64,000 bases of DNA, from NCBI GenBank assembly GCA_913061265.1, contig CAJXVS010000003.1, forward strand, positions 186,001 to 250,000. Direction: 5' to 3'. The notes beneath the pieces were generated by a model. It saw only the letters and a program-made list of their open reading frames with translations. It did not search any database and had not been told where the DNA came from. Source of the stretch: an uncultured Halobacteriovorax sp. (lineage in GTDB: Bacteria; Bdellovibrionota; Bacteriovoracia; Bacteriovoracales; Bacteriovoracaceae). Below, in pieces: positions 23,155 through 32,169 of this stretch; position 1 is the stretch's first letter; each line of letters begins with the position of its first letter. Made by a program: the position numbers and the translations under genes.

Positions 23155-23865
23155 ATGGAAATTAACCATCTTAAATTCGAATCATTGGACTCAACGCAAA
23201 TATGGCTAAAAGAAAATATTATTAGCCACTTAGGCAGTAATACTCTTGTCTCTACGCGCATTCAATCGAAGGGTACGGGTAGACTAGGCAACCGATGGAA
23301 TCAGTTTGGGGCTTCGCTAGCCTTCTCTCTTCTCTTAAAGCCTTGTGATCCTTTAACCCTAACCTCTCTTGAGATAGGCATTCACTTAGCCAGTTTTCTG
23401 AACTCAATGGATCAAAAGGTCCTTCTAAAGTGGCCTAATGATATTCTCATTAAGGAAGGTAATGGTTTTAAGAAAGTTGGAGGGATTCTTTCTCACTATC
23501 AAGGCCCTGAGGTTTTGATCGTAGGAATTGGTCTTAATTTGGAACTTTCTAAAGACGAAAGTTTTCAGGACAAAGATTTTAAGTTTCCCCCTGGCGCCTT
23601 AAACATGGACCTTTCAAGGCTTAAAGATTTCTATCACTCACTTCCTTATAAGTTTTATGAATATATTTTAAACAATCGTCTTCAATCAGATGACATCATA
23701 TCTAAGTGGAATCAACTCTGTGCTCATAAAGATTTAACCGTAAAGATTGTAGATGGAAAGAGTTCTTACTCTGGTACCTTTGAAGGCATAGGTCCAAATG
23801 GAGAGGCCCTGGTTAAAGGGCCTAGTGAGTCTAAGAAATTTATTTCTGGTTCATTACTCTTTTAA
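23155..23865 (+). CDS. birA: Biotin-[acetyl/propionyl-CoA carboxylase] ligase, BirA catalytic type
   Basis: Attaches biotin to the carrier lysine of biotin-dependent carboxylases, here presumably the AccB-like subunit at 56672-57184. A 236-residue monofunctional (class I) ligase without the N-terminal DNA-binding domain of E. coli BirA. Core motifs: FESLDSTQIWLKE, STRIQSKGTGRLGNRWNQ (the GRGR-type biotinyl-AMP loop, here GTGRLGNRW), LKWPNDILI with the catalytic lysine context near residue 98, and KVGGILSHY. The C-terminal SH3-like domain (about 190-236) is present. Start ATG 23155. The TAA stop interlocks with the convergent receiver gene stop (four-base overlap). Confidence 0.93.
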   Translation: MEINHLKFESLDSTQIWLKENIISHLGSNTLVSTRIQSKGTGRLGNRWNQFGASLAFSLLLKPCDPLTLTSLEIGIHLASFLNSMDQKVLLKWPNDILIKEGNGFKKVGGILSHYQGPEVLIVGIGLNLELSKDESFQDKDFKFPPGALNMDLSRLKDFYHSLPYKFYEYILNNRLQSDDIISKWNQLCAHKDLTVKIVDGKSSYSGTFEGIGPNGEALVKGPSESKKFISGSLLF

Positions 23866-25232
23866 AGAGACTGACTATTTTCTTTGATGTCTTTTATTTC
23901 ACTTCTAATTAGGTTTTCAGCAAGGTCAGGAATGATCTGCCAGGCTACGTTTTCAATAGTTTCGATACAATGCTTTTCAATCAATTCACTAATCAGAGGC
24001 TTTATATCTTCAATGATCTTAGCAACAAGCTCATCTTTATTTATTTCAGATGAATTATTTGAACTAATGTTTTCCTCAAGTGGGGATTCAATATTTAAGG
24101 GCTCATACTCTCTAGTTTCTTTTTGAGGCTCAAGTGACATTCCCTCTAGAATGACTTCATCAGTCTGTCCCTCATCAGGCTCAGCGTGAAACTCTTCTTC
24201 ATGTTCATCTTCTATATCATCTGCAAGACTAAGCTCTTCTCCAGAAGATTCGTCAGCTGCCCAAAAGTCATCAACTTCTTCTTCATCTTCTACGGCAGTG
24301 CTTAACTCTTCTGTTGGTAAAGTGAACTGTGGGTCTGTTTTTTCTAAATACTCTTCTTCATCGTCAGCTTCGTCTAAATTGAACTCATCTGTCGTTAAGA
24401 AAGCACTAGTAGGCTTATGATCTATTTCTTTTGAAACGTTTTGTTCAACGGCCTCTATTTCCCCTAGATCTGGGTAATCAAGGTCACTACCTAGTGGGAG
24501 GTTTTTTTCTTCTTCATGAACAATCTCAAAACCTTCTGAAGATACTGAAGATGAAACCTTCGGAGAAACAATCACTCCAGGTAAATCCATATCCATTTCA
24601 TTTTGCTCATTACCTATTGGTCCAGGAACATTCATTCCCCACCCTTCTAAACTAGCAGCTAAAGGATTTTCAATTGTTTCTTTAGAGCCTTGAGAAAAAG
24701 AATCCCAAGATTCAGAGCTTTTATCAACGGGAGATGGGCTATCAACAACCCAACCATCACCATTTGAGTTATCTTCAATATCACTAAGGGTTATTTCTTC
24801 TAAATCATTTTCTAAAAAGTTTGATTCTGTCTCACCACTAAAAATTGATGCTGTTTCTTCACTAGCACTTGATTCTAAAAGTGTTTGAATTTTTTGAATA
24901 AATGAACTGCTCTCAAAAGGCTTAACAATTCGATCTGATAGACCAGAGTCATTGAACTTCTCTTCATCAACAGAGTCGAAAGTCCCTAAAAGTAGGATAA
25001 TAGGAAGATCTGGAAATTGTTTCTTAGCTTCTTTAGCTACCTGGTAACCAGACTTAGATTCAGAAAGGTTCAGATCAAGAAGAAGGAGACTAGCTCCCCC
25101 TATAATCAATTGTTCATTTAATTGAGATTCGTCCTTACATTCAATTAGTTCATAATCATGGCTAGCTAAAGTAATGCTAACCACTTTTTGAACTGTAAGA
25201 CTGTCATCTGCTACTAAAATTCTCTGGGTCAT
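23862..25232 (-). CDS. Receiver-domain protein with long acidic linker and C-terminal helical domain
   Basis: A 456-residue CheY-like receiver (residues 1-120) fused to a very acidic Glu/Asp/Ser linker (about 125-385) and a conserved helical C-terminal segment (about 395-456). Receiver residues are intact: acidic pair in VADDS, phospho-acceptor Asp in LLLLDLNL near residue 58, and the Lys in DRIVKPF near 106. The C-terminal block with ETIENVAWQIIPDLAENLI resembles the tail of delta-proteobacterial response regulators (AWEVVPDLAE-type). No DNA-binding or kinase domain. It lies 56 bases downstream of the PP2C gene on the same strand, so it may belong to the FHA/PP2C cluster. A 20-base palindrome sits immediately before its ATG. 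Confidence 0.8.
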   Translation of the reverse strand: MTQRILVADDSLTVQKVVSITLASHDYELIECKDESQLNEQLIIGGASLLLLDLNLSESKSGYQVAKEAKKQFPDLPIILLLGTFDSVDEEKFNDSGLSDRIVKPFESSSFIQKIQTLLESSASEETASIFSGETESNFLENDLEEITLSDIEDNSNGDGWVVDSPSPVDKSSESWDSFSQGSKETIENPLAASLEGWGMNVPGPIGNEQNEMDMDLPGVIVSPKVSSSVSSEGFEIVHEEEKNLPLGSDLDYPDLGEIEAVEQNVSKEIDHKPTSAFLTTDEFNLDEADDEEEYLEKTDPQFTLPTEELSTAVEDEEEVDDFWAADESSGEELSLADDIEDEHEEEFHAEPDEGQTDEVILEGMSLEPQKETREYEPLNIESPLEENISSNNSSEINKDELVAKIIEDIKPLISELIEKHCIETIENVAWQIIPDLAENLIRSEIKDIKENSQSL

Positions 25233-25288: not shown

Positions 25289-26026
25289 TTAATACTGGAG
25301 AAGAATAGTAGATTGATTATCCATATTCCCGCGGCTATTCGCCAACTTGAATAGTTCCTTAACTTTCTGTCCGTCACTTGGGCGCTTTCTCTCAAGAGTA
25401 AACTTGATTTCTTCGGGGCTTAGACGAGAGTATACTCCATCAGTTAGCAAGATAAGAACATCCTCTTCTTTAATGCGAACTTCAGAGACTTTAAAATGAA
25501 GATCGTCAAAAAGGCCAAATCCGCTCATAGGCATTGATAGAAAGTGTTTCAAGTATTCATCTTGACCTAAAAACTCCATATTATCTGGAGACATGACTTG
25601 GCTTATATGACCATTTCTATAGAGAAATCCACTACAATTTCCAGTCCCAACGATGGTCAGAATGTTTTCAGATTGGGCCACTGCAATACAAGAAGCCCCA
25701 CCTCTTTCATTCATCTCAGCTTTCGTGTTCTTATTCTTCAATTCTTCATGGGCATAAACCATCGCATTTACTAAGGCATTGCCTTCAATTAAATACTTCT
25801 GGCTAAAATAAAAGGGCAATGTCGCATCGGGATCGCCCCCAATCTTAGTATAGAAATTTTTTATGGTTTGTTTGATCTCTTGAACGGCCTTATCACCAAT
25901 GGAGCTTCCACCAAAACCATCAAAGATAATATAAAGCTGATTGATTAAATCTATTTCAACATCGTCCTCATTGATTTGTAGATGGGGACCTTGATGGGTG
26001 TGGGCGGAATAACTTTTAAGCTTCAT
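25289..26026 (-). CDS. PP2C-family protein phosphatase
   Basis: Metal-dependent Ser/Thr protein phosphatase, cytosolic, of 245 residues (the catalytic core alone). PP2C motifs: NEDD (Glu20, Asp21) near the start, FDGFGG (Asp36-Gly37) as the metal-binding DGMGG equivalent, GASCIAVA, GNCSGFLYRNG (the GDSRAYLYRNG equivalent), ILLTDGVYSRL with the third metal Asp, and MDNQSTILL at the C-terminus. The first-motif Arg is not evident (Thr-His-Gln-Gly precedes NEDD), and GNCS replaces the common GDSR. The gene follows three FHA-domain genes with a 7-base gap, so it probably removes phospho-Thr marks that those FHA domains read. No Ser/Thr kinase lies in the cluster. Confidence 0.85.
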   Translation of the reverse strand: MKLKSYSAHTHQGPHLQINEDDVEIDLINQLYIIFDGFGGSSIGDKAVQEIKQTIKNFYTKIGGDPDATLPFYFSQKYLIEGNALVNAMVYAHEELKNKNTKAEMNERGGASCIAVAQSENILTIVGTGNCSGFLYRNGHISQVMSPDNMEFLGQDEYLKHFLSMPMSGFGLFDDLHFKVSEVRIKEEDVLILLTDGVYSRLSPEEIKFTLERKRPSDGQKVKELFKLANSRGNMDNQSTILLQY

Positions 26027-26033
26027 GCTTACC

Positions 26034-28301
26034 TCAGTCTAAATAATCTTTTAGTTTTTCTGATGCCTTTTTATAGTATTCGCTATCACTAGGAGAAACC
26101 TGCTGAACTTCTTGAAATTTTTCCTTGGCATCTTCAAAAAGACTCAAAGATTCAGCAATGATGGCCTCTCTATATATTTTCTTACTTCTATTTTTTAATC
26201 GTTCTCTAATTTCATTGCTCTCATCTAAGGCCTCTGCATTAGAAGGATCAGAGTTCATGATCTCAATGTATATTTCATAGGCACCTTTTAGATCTTGTCC
26301 TTCTTTTAAGCTTCGCGCCTTTCCTAAAAGAGGTCCTACAATATTTGAGAGCTTATCTTTAGATTCTGAAAGCATATTAGAACCCTCAGTCATAAGATCT
26401 TCATCAATATTTCTTTTTCTAACAAAGTCTTTTAATTTTTGAATCGCCTTGTACCATTCTTTATTCAGATAGAAGTTCTTACCAGGAGATAGAAGTTCTA
26501 CTTGCCTCTTTCTTTCTGATTCAGCTTCTGCTTTTTTTAACGCAGCCGCTTGCTCTTTTCTTTCAAACTCTTCAATTCTTTGTTTCAAAATAGGAACATC
26601 AAAGTTCTCAGGATCTAAACTTAAGATGGTATCAAAGGTCGACCTAGCTCTTATGGCCTGATTATTATCTACAGCTTCTTTTGCAACAGCTACTAAAGTC
26701 TTAACTTTCTCATCTCTCAATTTTTTGGCAATCTCTTCTTTTCTCTTCTTTTCTTGCTCTTCTAGTTTCTTTAAACCATCTTTAGATAATTGGTATAATT
26801 GTCCCGAGCTTTTATAATCTTCTATTAATACAAAGATCTTATCGAATTCAGTAACCGCATCTCTATAGTTCCCAACCTCGAATTGCTCTTTTGCGAGCAA
26901 GTACTGAGCTTCAACGTATTCTATTTGTTCAGGAGTAAGCTTCTTTAGAAGCTTCTTCTTTTTAGAATTAGGATCATCTTTTTTATTATTCAAAAGGTTA
27001 GATTTTGTTACTGCCTTTTTTACTTTCTTCTTCTTAGTTTCATCACCCGAAAAGAGAAAAAGACAAACTATAAAAAGGACAACTCCGTAAATCAGATACT
27101 TTTTACGTAATTCAGGAGGCAAATTCTTAAAGTTTTTAAGATCTGCAACTAGGCCTTGGCTTTCAGTAGTTCCTTCTGCAACTTCTCCGAGTTCACCTTC
27201 AAAGTCTGCATCAACTTCTACAATTTCTTCGACTTCTACCATTTGATTTTCTTCAACAGGCATTAGGCGTTGCTGTTCTTCTTGAAGAAAGTCTGAACTA
27301 ATCTTTACCGTTAGAGTTGTACCACCAATGATGATTTCATCATTATTAGTTAAGACTGATTTATTGATCCTCTCTCCATTGAGTAAGGTACCATTACCAG
27401 AATCCTGATCCTCTATAAAACAAGTGATATTATTCTTCTTTAAAATGGCATGAACACCAGAGACTTCAGCATCATTAAGAACAATCTGACATTTTTCAGG
27501 ATCTCGTCCAATGCGTACTTCTGCCGTATCAATGACATATTTTTCATAGGGAGCGTGCTCGCCAAATAGTTCAAGTTCTATCTTTGCAAAAGCCTGAATG
27601 ACACGCGTACTTTCGTCACCATCATCTTCATCATCATCATATGAATCAATTGCGTAATCATCGTCATTATTATCGTCAAAAGATGTTTCTGAATCATCAC
27701 TATCACCAAAGAGCTCATCTTCATCTGAGCCTTCTTCTATTTCACTAACATCGGATTCAAAAGATTCATCATCTGAAGAAAAGTCATCTTCACTCGATTC
27801 AAAGCCTTCTTCAGAAAAGTCTTCTTCGCCTGCTTCATCACCTAGTTCACTTACTTCATTTGAATCAAGGGCTACGGTTTCTTCGTCGAAATCATCTAAG
27901 AGTTCCGTTTCATCAGAGAGTTCTGGTCCTTCATCAACTTCTTCATCAGCTTCAACTGGGATATCTTCCGGTGTTTCGGGAGCTACTAATGTAGGGATAT
28001 TTACATTTAAAACATAAGGTCCAACAGTAATGATATCACCACTTTCAAGTATCTTATTTTCGTACGGAGTTCCATTAACTATCACTTTAGAGAATGGACT
28101 AAGTTGCTTTATATTCCAGGCTCCACTAATAAAGGAAACCTCTGCATGTTCTCTTGAGATCTGCTTATCATCTAAATGAACGTGGCAATCCGGCGATCTT
28201 CCTAAAAAGAACGTTGCATCGGAATCTAAGTTTCCAATTACCTCTGTACCGAGATTTACCTCTATTACAGATTGATTGTCTTTAAAAACACTTATGTTCA
28301 C
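26034..28301 (-). CDS. Membrane protein with two FHA domains, acidic linker and TPR-like C-terminus
   Basis: A 755-residue protein. FHA domain 1 (about 20-95; LGRSPDCHVHL, ISREHAEVSF) lacks the usual GS-x-NG and has FSKVIVNGTPY. A Glu/Asp/Ser-rich linker (about 105-245) follows. FHA domain 2 (about 255-330) has IGRDPEKCQIVL, VSGVHA and DSGNGTLLNGE. Then comes a single transmembrane helix (about 402-420), followed by basic residues, and a helical, TPR-like C-terminal half (about 435-755; YLLAKEQFEVGNYRDAVTEF). The topology of basic flank and linker suggests the FHA part is cytosolic and the TPR part periplasmic. Starts at GTG 28299-28301, overlapping the previous gene by 20 bases. Phosphothreonine-binding scaffold inferred. 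Confidence 0.85.
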   Translation of the reverse strand: MNISVFKDNQSVIEVNLGTEVIGNLDSDATFFLGRSPDCHVHLDDKQISREHAEVSFISGAWNIKQLSPFSKVIVNGTPYENKILESGDIITVGPYVLNVNIPTLVAPETPEDIPVEADEEVDEGPELSDETELLDDFDEETVALDSNEVSELGDEAGEEDFSEEGFESSEDDFSSDDESFESDVSEIEEGSDEDELFGDSDDSETSFDDNNDDDYAIDSYDDDEDDGDESTRVIQAFAKIELELFGEHAPYEKYVIDTAEVRIGRDPEKCQIVLNDAEVSGVHAILKKNNITCFIEDQDSGNGTLLNGERINKSVLTNNDEIIIGGTTLTVKISSDFLQEEQQRLMPVEENQMVEVEEIVEVDADFEGELGEVAEGTTESQGLVADLKNFKNLPPELRKKYLIYGVVLFIVCLFLFSGDETKKKKVKKAVTKSNLLNNKKDDPNSKKKKLLKKLTPEQIEYVEAQYLLAKEQFEVGNYRDAVTEFDKIFVLIEDYKSSGQLYQLSKDGLKKLEEQEKKRKEEIAKKLRDEKVKTLVAVAKEAVDNNQAIRARSTFDTILSLDPENFDVPILKQRIEEFERKEQAAALKKAEAESERKRQVELLSPGKNFYLNKEWYKAIQKLKDFVRKRNIDEDLMTEGSNMLSESKDKLSNIVGPLLGKARSLKEGQDLKGAYEIYIEIMNSDPSNAEALDESNEIRERLKNRSKKIYREAIIAESLSLFEDAKEKFQEVQQVSPSDSEYYKKASEKLKDYLD

Positions 28302-29280
28302 CTTTTTCCATTCCTAGTTTCTCTTCTACAAAGAAAATATTTTGTTCTGCTTCGTCTAACCTTAAGTCTTCCTTTCCAGCTTTTTTCACTTCATCTAAAA
28401 GCCTAACCACTGCACAATACTCAATGAGAGCGGCTTTATATTTAAGAGAGTCCACATCAATCTTAGCTTTCTCAAAATGCTGCCGAATTGTTTCATCGAA
28501 GCTTTGTTTTGCTTTACGCTCTAAGAAACTACAATAACCATGATTAGGAGCCAGTATTAGACAAAGGTTCAATTCTTCAATGGCCCTAAAATAGTTTCCT
28601 TCCCTATATTCCCTTCTCGCTCTATGAATAAAGGTATCTACCTTATCTCTCGTGTCTTTATCTTCAATCTTCTTTTGATCGTTATAAACCATATTAAGAG
28701 CTTCAGTTACTTCTTGAAGATTCTCTGTAGATTTCTTTTTCTTTTTCACTCCAGGATCACTTCCATCTAAGACAAAATAAACAAGAGCAAGGACTCCAAT
28801 TAAGACAAAGAGTCTCTTCCTGCTTTTCTTTTCTTTCTCTTTTGATTTTGCTTTCTTAGATGATTTAACCTCTTCGTATTCATCATCGTCATCATCCTCA
28901 TCATCTTCTTCAATGACACTTAAAGCCTTATTGTTATGAACACTGTATTTGTAAACAGTTTGCCCAATGATGATCTTATCTCCATCTATCAATTGATGCT
29001 GAGTAACCTTAAGATCGTTTATGATAATCCCATTTTGACTGCCAAGATCGGTGACAACATATTTCGCACCCACTTTCTTAAGCTCAGCATGGGCTCGGGA
29101 AGATTTCGCATCTAAAACTTGAACATCAGCTTCATCGCCTCTTCCCATTACGGCTCGTTTTCCACTGAGATAATAGGAAATACCTTTATTTTTACCCGTT
29201 AAACAAAGCAGACGGTAGTGCATACCTTCTTTAGAAGGTACGCTTAGGTCTTTAGAAATTTTAACCGCACTGCTTTTCAT
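28282..29280 (-). CDS. Membrane protein with one FHA domain and TPR-like C-terminus
   Basis: A 332-residue protein with the same plan as its downstream neighbour but shorter. One FHA domain (about 30-105; VMGRGDEADVQV, SSRAHAELKK, DLGSQNGIIIND) carries the Arg, Ser-x-x-His and Asn expected for phospho-Thr binding. An acidic then lysine-rich linker (about 120-150), one transmembrane helix (about 153-172; VLIGVLALVYFVLDG), a basic stretch and a TPR-like region (about 205-330; ARREYREGNYFRAIEELNLC) follow. ATG 29278-29280. It lies 5 bases after the preceding FHA gene and overlaps the following one, so the three FHA genes are one transcript. Probably a paralogue of the 755-residue protein. Confidence 0.85.
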   Translation of the reverse strand: MKSSAVKISKDLSVPSKEGMHYRLLCLTGKNKGISYYLSGKRAVMGRGDEADVQVLDAKSSRAHAELKKVGAKYVVTDLGSQNGIIINDLKVTQHQLIDGDKIIIGQTVYKYSVHNNKALSVIEEDDEDDDDDEYEEVKSSKKAKSKEKEKKSRKRLFVLIGVLALVYFVLDGSDPGVKKKKKSTENLQEVTEALNMVYNDQKKIEDKDTRDKVDTFIHRARREYREGNYFRAIEELNLCLILAPNHGYCSFLERKAKQSFDETIRQHFEKAKIDVDSLKYKAALIEYCAVVRLLDEVKKAGKEDLRLDEAEQNIFFVEEKLGMEKGEHKCF

Positions 29281-29285
29281 TTTAT

Positions 29286-30848
29286 TTACTCATCTTTAAC
29301 AAAGGTAATATAGAATGCTTTGGCAAAGCCATCTTTACCCATAAGGGAAGCAACATGAACTTGATGGGGTTGTCCCGTCAGCTCGTACTCACCTTCTTGA
29401 TTAGTTCCTGCATTACTAGCTGAGTTTTCACAAAGATCTAGAACAGTAGCTGCAAAACCTTGCTCTCTAGCAACATCAAGCAGACTCATGCCTTCTGCAG
29501 CTGACTCTCGAATCCCTGTTAAATCTTCGGCCATCATATTTATGCTAATGACATTTTTCTCACTATTTAGAATCATCGCACCGCCATTCGCTCCTCTTAA
29601 GAACTCCTTCAAGGTAGCGATATAAGCTTCATCATCTTCTTCTTCTACAAAATCACCTTCTCCTCCCTCACTACTAAGTTCTCTCACCCGCTGCAAGACC
29701 GAGTTAATAGAATCTCTAAGTGGATCTAGAGATGACATCAGGTATTCGGATTCAAGGTTTTTTCTTTTTCCTCTGAGTGCTTCTTCAATTTGTAAACGAA
29801 GTTCTTCTAATGGTCTTTGAGTCATATAATAAACGATCCCAAAAAAGATAAGGGCCACGATCCCAGAAGTCACGAGGGACTCTAGATATAGCTTTGTACT
29901 TCTCTTTGCTTCTTTTACCAATGATTCTGGGTTGAATTTAATGGCAATGATTCCGACAGCTTTTCTTTGCCCAATCTTTGCATCGAAGGCCATAATCTTT
30001 TTACCAATACCAATTGATCCGTCTTTCAATCTTCTTGCGTGAAGACTTTTTTTCTTCTTTGGATTCATCAAGGCTTCTTTAGCTTCTGCGGAAAAAGCAT
30101 CTCTTGAATATTCATTTAACTGAGTGATAGGACGGACAATTCTCAAACTTGGATCAAAAAGCTCATAGGAGCTAACACCATCTTCTTTATCTAAGAAAGC
30201 TGTATCAACTCTCTCTAGTCTATTATCTTCTAGAGCCTGGGCATTGATTCGAGCAATTTCTTCAGCATAATGACTTCCCCTCTTCGCAATTTCCGAATAA
30301 AGGATTTCTCTACTGTCTCTTAAGACAGGAATAATTGTTAATGTTATTGTGGCTACAGAAAAGAGTGATAAAAGGATCCCAAAAAGATGACTCCATTCAT
30401 ATTCTTCATTTACGCCGTGAACGACGGGCATGATTTTCCATTTAAAGGCCCAGAGCAGCTTTCCTAAGATATTTTCCGGCATAGGATCAGGTCTGAATAA
30501 CTCATCATCATCTTCATCTTCTTCGTCTGTGACAGCTTTTTTTACAATTATTTTTTTCTCTTCTACATAAACGACCTGCATAATAAGATCGGGTAGAGCA
30601 ATCTTGTCTCCATTTTCAGCTGTCGCTCTTTTAATGATTTTTCCGTTTAAGAATGTTCCATTTGATGAGCCAAGATCATTTATATAACAGACATCATCAG
30701 TAACGGTGACTGCCATATGTTTCTTAGAAATACCTTGAACAGAAAGATGGACATCACAACCTGAATCACGACCGCAAATATTTTCGCCATCATGAAGTTC
30801 AAATTCTTGACCTCTCAATTTACCTGCTACTGCTACTAATTTGTACAT
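29286..30848 (-). CDS. FHA-domain transmembrane sensor with HAMP/PAS-like regions, no kinase
   Basis: A 520-residue protein: FHA domain (about 20-95; ICGRDSGCDVHLS, ISKKHMAVTV, DLGSSNGTFLNG), an acidic linker, two transmembrane helices (about 153-178 and 318-340) enclosing a roughly 140-residue extracytoplasmic sensor region, a HAMP-like linker (RPLEELRLQIEEALRG) and a PAS-like domain (about 410-490; GGAMILNSEKNVISINMMAEDL). There is no histidine kinase, cyclase or methyl-accepting domain after the PAS, so output must be through the FHA domain or protein contacts. ATG 30846-30848 overlaps the DUF192 gene by 13 bases. First of three consecutive FHA genes. Confidence 0.82.
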   Translation of the reverse strand: MYKLVAVAGKLRGQEFELHDGENICGRDSGCDVHLSVQGISKKHMAVTVTDDVCYINDLGSSNGTFLNGKIIKRATAENGDKIALPDLIMQVVYVEEKKIIVKKAVTDEEDEDDDELFRPDPMPENILGKLLWAFKWKIMPVVHGVNEEYEWSHLFGILLSLFSVATITLTIIPVLRDSREILYSEIAKRGSHYAEEIARINAQALEDNRLERVDTAFLDKEDGVSSYELFDPSLRIVRPITQLNEYSRDAFSAEAKEALMNPKKKKSLHARRLKDGSIGIGKKIMAFDAKIGQRKAVGIIAIKFNPESLVKEAKRSTKLYLESLVTSGIVALIFFGIVYYMTQRPLEELRLQIEEALRGKRKNLESEYLMSSLDPLRDSINSVLQRVRELSSEGGEGDFVEEEDDEAYIATLKEFLRGANGGAMILNSEKNVISINMMAEDLTGIRESAAEGMSLLDVAREQGFAATVLDLCENSASNAGTNQEGEYELTGQPHQVHVASLMGKDGFAKAFYITFVKDE

Positions 30849-31180
30849 ATTACCTCTAACTTATCGCCTTCAAGAATTCGTTGATCAAGGCTCCCGCCAT
30901 TCAACTCTAAAACTTGATGAGCTCTTAAGTACATCCGTGTCATCCTCCATGGGCGGAGGTTCCTTTTTATCTTTATAATTTCCATCTCTTTATTTAAAAA
31001 TAAAACGTCAATGGGGTAGTTCATAAAAAAAGTATGAATTGAATTACACGGCTTAATAAATAGTCCATCAAACCCCACCATCTCTCTAGAGAACATGAGT
31101 CCCTTCATACGCGAAAGCATACTAGATGCTTCTTTAGCATTTGCTGCAACCTCAATTTTATTTTGGTTTTGAACCACCAT
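30836..31180 (-). CDS. DUF192 family protein
   Basis: A 114-residue protein of the DUF192 family: MIKPCNSIHTFFMNYPIDVLFL (seen here as FIKPCNSIHTFFMNYPID), preceded by MLSRMKGLMFSREM and followed by RNLRPWRM, the typical family landmarks. Family function is unknown. Most members are exported, but no signal peptide is visible here, so this one appears cytosolic. ATG 31178-31180. It lies 9 bases after tadC and overlaps the first FHA gene, so it is embedded in the operon, which suggests a role with the TadC/FHA proteins. A small nucleotide- or ligand-binding role has been proposed for the fold, but nothing here tests that. Confidence 0.8.
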   Translation of the reverse strand: MVVQNQNKIEVAANAKEASSMLSRMKGLMFSREMVGFDGLFIKPCNSIHTFFMNYPIDVLFLNKEMEIIKIKRNLRPWRMTRMYLRAHQVLELNGGSLDQRILEGDKLEVICTN

Positions 31181-31189
31181 TTAATACCT

Positions 31190-32092
31190 TTATTTTCCTG
31201 ACATAAAGCCCAACACCATGGGCGCCATTACGATCAATACAACCGCAGGCATAATTAAAAAAATCATTGGGAATAAAATTTTTGTTGCTGCTGTAGCACC
31301 TGCCTTTTCAGCTTCAGCAGATTTCTTTTGTCTAATCTCTGCACTTAGTGCTTTTAGGATAGGACCAATAGAAGCACCAACTGAATCTGCAGCAATAAGA
31401 GTTGCGCAAAATGAAGCAATTGAAACAAGGTCAATTCTCCATGACATATTTCGAAGAGCTTCTGCTCTACTCGCACCAATCTTTACTTCTTTAAGTAAGA
31501 TTTCAAATTCTTCATTAAGAGCACTAGGCTTTGCTTTCTCTACAACCTTTGTCATTGCGGCCATAAAATCAAGGCCAGCTTCAACAGAGAGGGCCAACAT
31601 ATCAACAGCAAAAGGCATGTTCTGCATGACTTCTTTTTGTCTCTCGGTAATCTTTCCCTTGATCCAAAAATCAGGGTACATAAATCCAAAGATTGCTATG
31701 ATAGGAATGGAGGATAAAGGCCAAGTTTCCTCTAAGAAAGCTCGAATACCTAGAAAGGCTATAGGAAATCCAATAATTAAAAAGAGCTTAAAGGAGAAGA
31801 ATTCTTCGGGGGTTAAAATCTCTGTCAGACCTGCACTCGCTAAAGGTCTTTTATATTTTTCTCGGATCTTCTTTTTACTCTTCATGGTCGAGACGATTGG
31901 GGCAACATACCTTCGAAAGAATGGCCTAGAAGCTCTTAGAACAATCCCCTGTTCCTTTAACTTATCGCTGCCTCTAGCAGCTCCCTCTTCGATTTTCTCG
32001 CCGGCCTTAAATTCTTCTTCTTCTTGGAACATCATATTGGTTACGATGAACACGGCGACAAAAATTAATATAGTTGCTGCAATAGCGAGCAT
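31190..32092 (-). CDS. tadC: TadC-like type II secretion F-domain membrane protein
   Basis: Inner-membrane platform protein of Tad/Flp pilus or type II secretion-like machines. The 300 residues hold an N-terminal membrane helix (residues 1-20), a cytoplasmic basic segment, two helices near 100-145, and a T2SSF domain (about 160-285) with MPFAVDMLALSVEAGLDFMAAM, SIASFCATLIAADSVGASIG and the C-terminal hydrophobic pair ending MVLGFMSGK. Tad systems use a TadB-TadC pair with the ATPase TadA. Neither tadA nor tadB lies beside it: the upstream gene is nagZ, across a 133-base gap holding a candidate promoter. It heads the DUF192-FHA-PP2C operon. Confidence 0.85.
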   Translation of the reverse strand: MLAIAATILIFVAVFIVTNMMFQEEEEFKAGEKIEEGAARGSDKLKEQGIVLRASRPFFRRYVAPIVSTMKSKKKIREKYKRPLASAGLTEILTPEEFFSFKLFLIIGFPIAFLGIRAFLEETWPLSSIPIIAIFGFMYPDFWIKGKITERQKEVMQNMPFAVDMLALSVEAGLDFMAAMTKVVEKAKPSALNEEFEILLKEVKIGASRAEALRNMSWRIDLVSIASFCATLIAADSVGASIGPILKALSAEIRQKKSAEAEKAGATAATKILFPMIFLIMPAVVLIVMAPMVLGFMSGK

Positions 32093-32142
32093 TAATCTCT
32101 CCTTAAAATACTGTAACTATAGGATATCAAAGGAGTGGAGGT

Positions 32143-32169
32143 ATTATAGCGTGGGGCAATAAAGTCCCC
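32143..32169 (-). promoter_or_regulatory. Candidate promoter -10 and inverted repeat upstream of tadC
   Basis: On the minus strand a perfect TATAAT (32148-32143) lies 51 bases before the tadC ATG. A GGGG/CCCC inverted repeat (32153-32156 with 32166-32169) fills the spacer. TTGAGG about 19 bases upstream is a weak -35. The repeat may be an operator, or the remnant of a nagZ terminator lacking a T-run. Confidence 0.4.

Follow-up and report, generated by a model that had tools for sequence, protein, structure and literature searches.

How does a lone TadC come to be encoded together with phosphothreonine (pThr) readers and a phosphatase, and what could such a set of proteins do? The question is raised by a block of genes in a 64,000-nucleotide stretch (the window) of contig CAJXVS010000003.1, from an uncultured Halobacteriovorax sp. 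From position 32092 down to 25289 on the minus strand, the block encodes TadC, a DUF192 protein, three FHA-domain proteins (FHA1, FHA2, and FHA3), and a PP2C phosphatase, in this order. An earlier, sequence-only reading of this DNA had described the array, with four FHA domains in three membrane proteins and a receiver protein behind, and had taken it for a candidate new signalling/secretion module. The array itself is confirmed, since all seven open reading frames (ORFs) are present on the minus strand and carry the expected Pfam matches. Rather than a new module, however, the block is almost certainly the TadC half of the lineage's single tad (Kil-like, Flp) pilus locus. It is likely that, in this half, the three FHA membrane proteins form a pThr-operated control layer on the inner-membrane platform. 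We hold it slightly less firmly, but still as probable, that the control is a pThr switch acting through Thr232 of FHA3 and the FHA domains.

The six genes from TadC to PP2C form one tight operon, with gaps of 9 nucleotides (nt) or less, or overlaps. The spacing is 9 nt from TadC to DUF192, -13 nt to FHA1, 5 nt to FHA2, -20 nt to FHA3, and 7 nt to PP2C. TadC (300 amino acids (aa); 31190..32092, minus strand), the inner-membrane platform protein, matches T2SSF at 57.1 bits (Pfam cut-off 25.2) and is the only TadC match in its genome of 3.97 Mb and 12 contigs. A second tad cluster is located on the same contig, ~340 kb from the block, at C3:557-565 kb (here and below, G, C, and L numbers denote genomes, contigs, and loci). 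This cluster encodes a Flp-like pilin, the TadV peptidase, TadE/F-like proteins, CpaB, the secretin CpaC, a fused ParA-TadA ATPase (TadZA), and TadB, and has no TadC. TadV, CpaB, CpaC, TadZA, and TadB exceed their Pfam cut-offs (L040:4704-12048), and the Flp pilin has a class III signal match only, under cut-off. The component set of a Tad/Flp (type IVc) pilus is thus found in one genome, with TadC in the window and the rest in the second cluster. Since that cluster lacks TadC and the window holds the sole copy, the window TadC is the missing partner and not a redundant spare, as it would be had a complete tad locus existed elsewhere. The statement that a T2SSF platform occurs without TadA/TadB is correct within the block; genome-wide it does not hold.

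Four other families of the phylum have the two halves side by side or close together. In G060 (L237), the block from TadC to PP2C continues straight into Flp...TadF-CpaB-CpaC-TadZA-TadB. The halves also adjoin in G025 (L057) and G021 (L059, L068), and in G037 (L238) they lie 4.6 kb apart on the same strand, with three opposite-strand genes between them. They are split again in G086, which we take to be Bdellovibrio bacteriovorus HD100, where TadZA is at 99.8 kb and TadC at 440 kb. This is most simply explained by a single ancestral tad locus that was split in the window's family and in Bdellovibrio, although adjacency alone leaves the direction of change unproven.

Three minor observations concern the tad genes of these genomes. 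In G021, a single open frame of 919 aa seems to combine the TadA-type ATPase with TadB (L068:1 onward; C6:277783-280236). G073 has two equal-scoring TadC copies (C1:119177, C7:51530), which may be an assembly duplicate. Directly behind TadB lies a conserved gene of ~540-560 aa in several families (L040:12139-13767; L195, L196, L237, L240). Its product starts with an NGNYY...VRTYNSRS-like stretch (RHS/YD-repeat-like), and the location of the gene suggests that it may correspond to Bd0109 of the HD100 hit locus.

The arrangement of the block is widely conserved. Orthology was called with our own ORF caller plus blastp or hidden Markov model labels; most of the compared genomes are metagenome-assembled, and all relatives are from within the phylum. 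A TadC of this clade is present in 96 of 97 genomes sampled across 20 families. The exact seven-gene order, including the receiver gene, is kept in 58 of the 63 Bacteriovoracia loci with enough flank. Loci of the other families that could be read nearly all retain TadC-DUF192-FHA1-FHA2-FHA3, and most retain the PP2C slot, which is absent from family f3; a few of these loci are truncated at a contig end or wrongly labelled by the ORF caller. Since the order is kept in this way within and across families, the arrangement is not due to chance, and the conservation in other Bdellovibrionota that the sequence-only reading had asked about is present. When genome contigs were scanned, the best 80 loci were all of the Bdellovibrionota type. 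The DUF192 protein (114 aa; 30836..31180, minus strand; PF02643, 63.0 bits, cut-off 27) is encoded immediately after TadC in almost every relative.

The block is orthologous, gene for gene, to the operon Bd0470-Bd0475 of B. bacteriovorus, which has already been described in pieces (PMC6561027, PMC12034629). In HD100, FHA2 has 387 codons, FHA3 has 674 aa from an internal ATG, and the PP2C slot encodes 228 aa, sizes that fit those published for Bd0473 (386 aa), Bd0474, and Bd0475 (PMC12034629). Mutants made by others support a requirement of this operon for predation. A transposon insertion in Bd0470 (tadC) abolishes attachment to prey, and an insertion in Bd0474 leaves attachment intact and abolishes killing and prey rounding (PMC6561027). 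Loss of an FHA protein without a related phenotype, which would have spoken against the proposed role, is therefore not what the mutant of the FHA3 orthologue displays. Binding between Bd0473 and Bd0475 has been predicted, and an interaction between Bd0474 and Bd0075 has been shown by two-hybrid assay (PMC12034629).

Phylogeny groups the Bdellovibrionales homologues with the Kil system of Myxococcus xanthus (PMC8460266). Both here and in Kil, a Tad platform, a secretin, and a single ATPase are found with many FHA proteins, and the FHA-rich Tad locus is split into two gene clusters. Kil assembles where prey is contacted and mediates contact-dependent killing; here a comparable role would fit the mutant phenotypes of the B. 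bacteriovorus orthologues (PMC6561027). The Kil ATPase KilF carries an N-terminal FHA domain, whereas the ATPase of the window's genome consists of CbiA/ParA and T2SSE with no FHA match. For Kil, we found no published description of the order DUF192-FHA-FHA-FHA-PP2C. Since Seef et al. had suggested a signalling cascade made up of the many Kil FHA proteins (PMC8460266), the idea of FHA signalling is not new; the evidence at the level of residues and genes is. It consists of the near-invariance of the pThr-binding residues in three of the four FHA domains, the conservation of Thr232, a single distant kinase encoded near the DgcB gene, and a PP2C that is intact or degenerate depending on the family.

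All three FHA proteins exceed the Pfam FHA cut-off of 20.7 (56.0 and 52.7 bits, and 106.3 bits for the two-domain protein). By hydropathy, FHA1 has two transmembrane (TM) helices and FHA2 and FHA3 one each, in agreement with the suggestion that the readers span the membrane. FHA1 (520 aa; 29286..30848, minus strand) is modelled by AlphaFold as an FHA domain (aa 1-95; 30564..30848), a TM helix, a periplasmic alpha/beta sensor domain, a second TM helix, HAMP-like helices, and a PAS domain, with a mean predicted local distance difference test score (pLDDT) of 82. The top Foldseek match is a WalK model, followed by FHA structures including DgcB, and by its model FHA1 looks like a WalK-type sensor in which an FHA domain replaces the histidine kinase. 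FHA2 (332 aa; 28282..29280, minus strand), the Bd0473 orthologue, consists of an FHA domain, a TM helix (157-175), and a TPR-like exported part. FHA3 (755 aa, GTG start; 26034..28301, minus strand), the Bd0474 orthologue, is modelled as an FHA domain (FHA3a, aa 1-101; 27999..28301), an acidic disordered linker, a second FHA domain (FHA3b, aa 240-335; 27297..27584), a TM helix, and a helical TPR-like domain. The FHA1 and FHA3 models were based on 47 and 40 aligned sequences. None of the TPR, PAS, and HAMP assignments has a Pfam match over cut-off (PAS, 18.0 bits against 22.6). The two TPR-like exported halves and the HAMP/PAS part of the sequence-only reading therefore rest on AlphaFold models, and TPR also on profile-matched TPR structures.

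The residues of the pThr site are kept by three of the four FHA domains. R27, S41, and N63 of FHA1 are present in 71, 72, and 72 of 72 sequences of the window's family, and each in 42/42 sequences from 13 other families. For R47, S61, and N83 of FHA2, the counts are 67/67 each inside and 42, 42, and 41 of 42 outside. R266, S281, and N303 of FHA3b are each found in 61/62 Bacteriovoracia sequences and in 42, 42, and 40 of the 42 outside. FHA3a is a divergent reader that retains the Arg and Ser and lacks the Asn-Gly. Such conservation argues for genuine pThr reading over a purely structural FHA fold.

If FHA1, FHA2, and FHA3b read pThr, which threonine could be read? Thr232 of FHA3 (codon 27606..27608, minus strand; Thr133 of Bd0474) is the candidate phospho-acceptor. 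It precedes the Gly of the FHA3b GR motif by 33 aa and lies in a long acidic linker with a mean identity of 18%. Nonetheless, Thr232 is kept in 61/62 Bacteriovoracia sequences and in all 42 from the 13 other families. In 104/104 sequences, a Thr falls within the 11 positions that lie 31-41 residues ahead of the FHA Gly-Arg; neighbouring 11-residue stretches contain one in 4-16 of 26-42 sequences outside and 12-23 of 62 in Bacteriovoracia. The best common Thr position is shared by 39/42 and 62/62 sequences, against a maximum of 22/42 and 29/62 in 300 shuffles, which is a statement of conservation and not a probability because related sequences are not independent. The surrounding motif is [DE]-[KS]-T-x-[VI]-hydrophobic, with acidic residues at -3/-2, Lys or Ser at -1, and Val or Ile at +2, and it reads E-K-T-M-I-G in Bd0474. 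The DgcB tail fits this pattern as well, with E-K-T14-S-I-V in HD100 and, for the genome of the window, D-S-T-V-V-I. The phosphorylated HD100 tail has been crystallised in the FHA domain of DgcB (PMC6733907). When the pattern was sought in the tad-half proteins, a looser form of it matched TadZA at positions 130 and 209; this looser form also matches FHA3 at two more sites. In the FHA3 model, Thr232 lies in a disordered stretch (pLDDT ~35-45), and the model is therefore uninformative on docking. Like the acceptor Thr of GarA, OdhI, and DgcB, the candidate acceptor of FHA3 precedes a canonical FHA domain by a few tens of residues. FHA3 differs from them in that an additional FHA domain precedes the tail and the protein is membrane-anchored; self-binding of FHA3 would be by analogy.

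A Ser/Thr kinase was noted as missing by the sequence-only reading, which is true of the locus. For the genome it is not: exactly one strong Hanks kinase match (PF00069) is found, on C9. The protein has 677 aa, a kinase domain with HRD and DFG motifs, and one hydrophobic stretch. Of 80 good-quality genomes in the phylum, 77 have a relative with E <= 1e-50. HD100 also has one strong match, at 3.06 Mb, with a UbiB-like match under the cut-off; judged from position only, it is probably Bd3148. Bd3148 has been proposed as the kinase for DgcB (PMC6733907), and an insertion in its gene is cited there as impairing predation. The kinase gene is within a few kb of the DgcB orthologue in 8 of the 10 genomes examined from the window's family (G000, G001, G004, G006, G010, G011, G015, and G017) and not in G013 and G018. 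Threonines in the juxtamembrane region of the kinase were considered as a conserved site and rejected, as they are not conserved.

The PP2C-type phosphatase (245 aa; 25289..26026, minus strand), the Bd0475 orthologue, barely exceeds the cut-offs of PP2C_2 (PF13672, 24.6 bits against 24) and SpoIIE (PF07228, 25.3 against 25), and scores 67.7 bits against the NCBIfam Stp1 model, under that model's cut-off. Of its metal-binding aspartates, Asp21 and Asp36 are kept in 62/62 Bacteriovoracia sequences, and Asp196 and Asp236 in 58/62. The Bdellovibrio-type copies lack them. Bd0475, called hypothetical in print, is nevertheless derived from PP2C: profile comparison shows proteins of its type to be homologous (hhalign 96.6%, E 7e-10), and they have no Pfam match. 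A phosphatase active throughout the phylum is therefore rejected. Judged by these residues, the enzyme of the window's family is predicted to be catalytically intact and should work, while Bd0475 is probably a pseudophosphatase.

How might these parts work together? Most likely, they form a phospho-switch that responds to prey contact and acts on a Tad/Kil-like pilus. In this mechanism, the membrane Hanks kinase, the only one of the genome and encoded elsewhere near the FHA-GGDEF protein DgcB, would be triggered, probably by prey contact, and would phosphorylate Thr232 in the acidic FHA3 linker. The phospho-Thr232 would be bound by a canonical FHA domain, either by FHA1 or FHA2 in trans or by FHA3b itself, as in GarA, OdhI, and DgcB. 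Binding would gather or rearrange the FHA proteins around TadC/TadB and the periplasmic TPR domains, licensing pilus assembly at the contact site; we infer both this control and its direction. FHA1 may supply a second input, either periplasmic or PAS-borne. In the window's family, PP2C would reset the switch. In Bdellovibrio, where the slot protein lacks the metal ligands, another enzyme may perform the reset, or the protein may be a scaffold. More tentatively, and with our doubts outweighing our confidence, the single-copy Hanks kinase could be a prey-contact master switch in Bdellovibrionota that marks both the FHA3 linker and the DgcB tail via [DE]-[KS]-T-x-[VI]. If so, the FHA3 mark would fire the Tad/Kil-like pilus and the DgcB mark would start invasion driven by cyclic di-GMP (c-di-GMP), such that attachment and commitment share one licence.

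A related logic is known from the PpkA-PppA-Fha pathway of the type VI secretion system (T6SS). There too, pThr readers and a PP2C phosphatase serve an envelope machine, which in the T6SS is fired on contact, and the PDB structures weakly matched by the window PP2C include PppA. The PpkA-type kinase of the T6SS is encoded in its cluster, whereas here the kinase is on C9. The machine also differs, being a Tad pilus, and the FHA proteins span the membrane and carry TPR or sensor parts; against the Fha/TagH reader model (TIGR03354), the best score was 72.8 bits, far under the cut-off of 120.25.

Several points weigh against the proposed switch. The kinase gene is unlinked to the block: none was found in the block or flanks of 80 loci, and a kinase beside the block in relatives is rejected. 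G046 keeps the kinase without TadC, which means that the kinase has other work and is not dedicated to the pilus. Phosphorylation of FHA3, and the action of this kinase on it, are both postulated steps. In several families the phosphatase has degenerated, and in one none was detected, so that a reversible switch is not universal. Furthermore, since TadC is nearly phylum-wide and occurs in lineages not known as predators, the signal may be something other than prey contact.

The block may instead be a sensory output, a possible but rather unlikely explanation that overlaps the proposed switch. FHA1 would then report pilus contact or retraction through the shared kinase and Thr motif to DgcB, leading via c-di-GMP to commitment to invasion. 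The WalK-like sensor-HAMP-PAS architecture of FHA1 with its FHA domain, the motif common to the DgcB tail and the FHA3 linker, and the neighbouring kinase and DgcB genes in the window's family are consistent with such an output. The Bd0474 mutant, which attaches and does not proceed, behaves as expected of a commitment signal (PMC6561027), and DgcB is required for invasion (PMC6733907). However, the tadC insertion already blocks attachment, though effects on downstream genes are possible (PMC6561027), and no direct contact of FHA1 with the kinase or DgcB is known.

The main rival, which we regard as unlikely, assigns the FHA proteins a mainly structural role in the base of the pilus, comparable to that of the FHA-like SctD/YscD inner-membrane ring proteins, with phosphorylation contributing little or nothing. 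With the FHA domain in the cytoplasm and one TM helix, periplasmic repeats could bridge to the secretin, and this FHA-TM-periplasmic architecture is matched by Pfam Yop-YscD_cpl at 46-88 bits. The block is also a constant part of the tad locus, and the 'eraser' PP2C is dispensable. FHA1 grazes the SctD family model TIGR02500 at 20.2 bits, although against a cut-off of 86; only an FHA-like fold is shared. To our knowledge, SctD FHA folds lack pThr binding, whereas the Arg/Ser/Asn of the three readers here are essentially invariant across 13 further families, and a Thr is invariant within an otherwise unconserved linker. A new system unrelated to Tad pili that merely borrowed a T2SSF protein is highly improbable: the block lacks TadA/TadB and lies far from them in its own genome, but synteny in G021, G025, G037, and G060 already contradicts it, as does the sole TadC of the genome being in the block.

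With the pThr switch as the preferred explanation, the block bears on two matters that had been left open, namely how the predator pilus is switched on at contact (PMC8460266) and which kinase acts on DgcB (PMC6733907). It supplies a candidate site, candidate readers, and a candidate single kinase, and suggests why the protein in the phosphatase slot could function differently in Bdellovibrio and in the Halobacteriovorax group. A long-suspected switch that possibly fires the predator pilus is now directly testable. If it exists, pThr control, known from type VI secretion, extends to Tad pili.

The receiver-domain protein (23862..25232, minus strand; PF00072, 45.4 bits, cut-off 30.2) is encoded 56 nt behind PP2C. 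Its gene follows PP2C only in the window's family; none was seen in the loci of other families, and the B. bacteriovorus operon lacks it. It is probably an add-on that belongs to the block in this family only. The protein has a very acidic, variable middle within a long acidic tail, and its C-terminal motif VAWQIIPDLAENLI is strikingly conserved across Bacteriovoracia. Upstream of TadC, at a distance of 133 nt, lies a nagZ-like gene. A promoter scan was uninformative, with 18 matches where 20.8 were expected. A 314-codon open frame runs antisense to TadC (31218-32162, plus strand), without evidence of being a gene. Finally, another FHA protein of 657 aa (L194:5237-7210; G000:C4:361925) is encoded beside TolQ/TolR-like and TPR genes, in what may be a gliding-motility (Glt-like) cluster.

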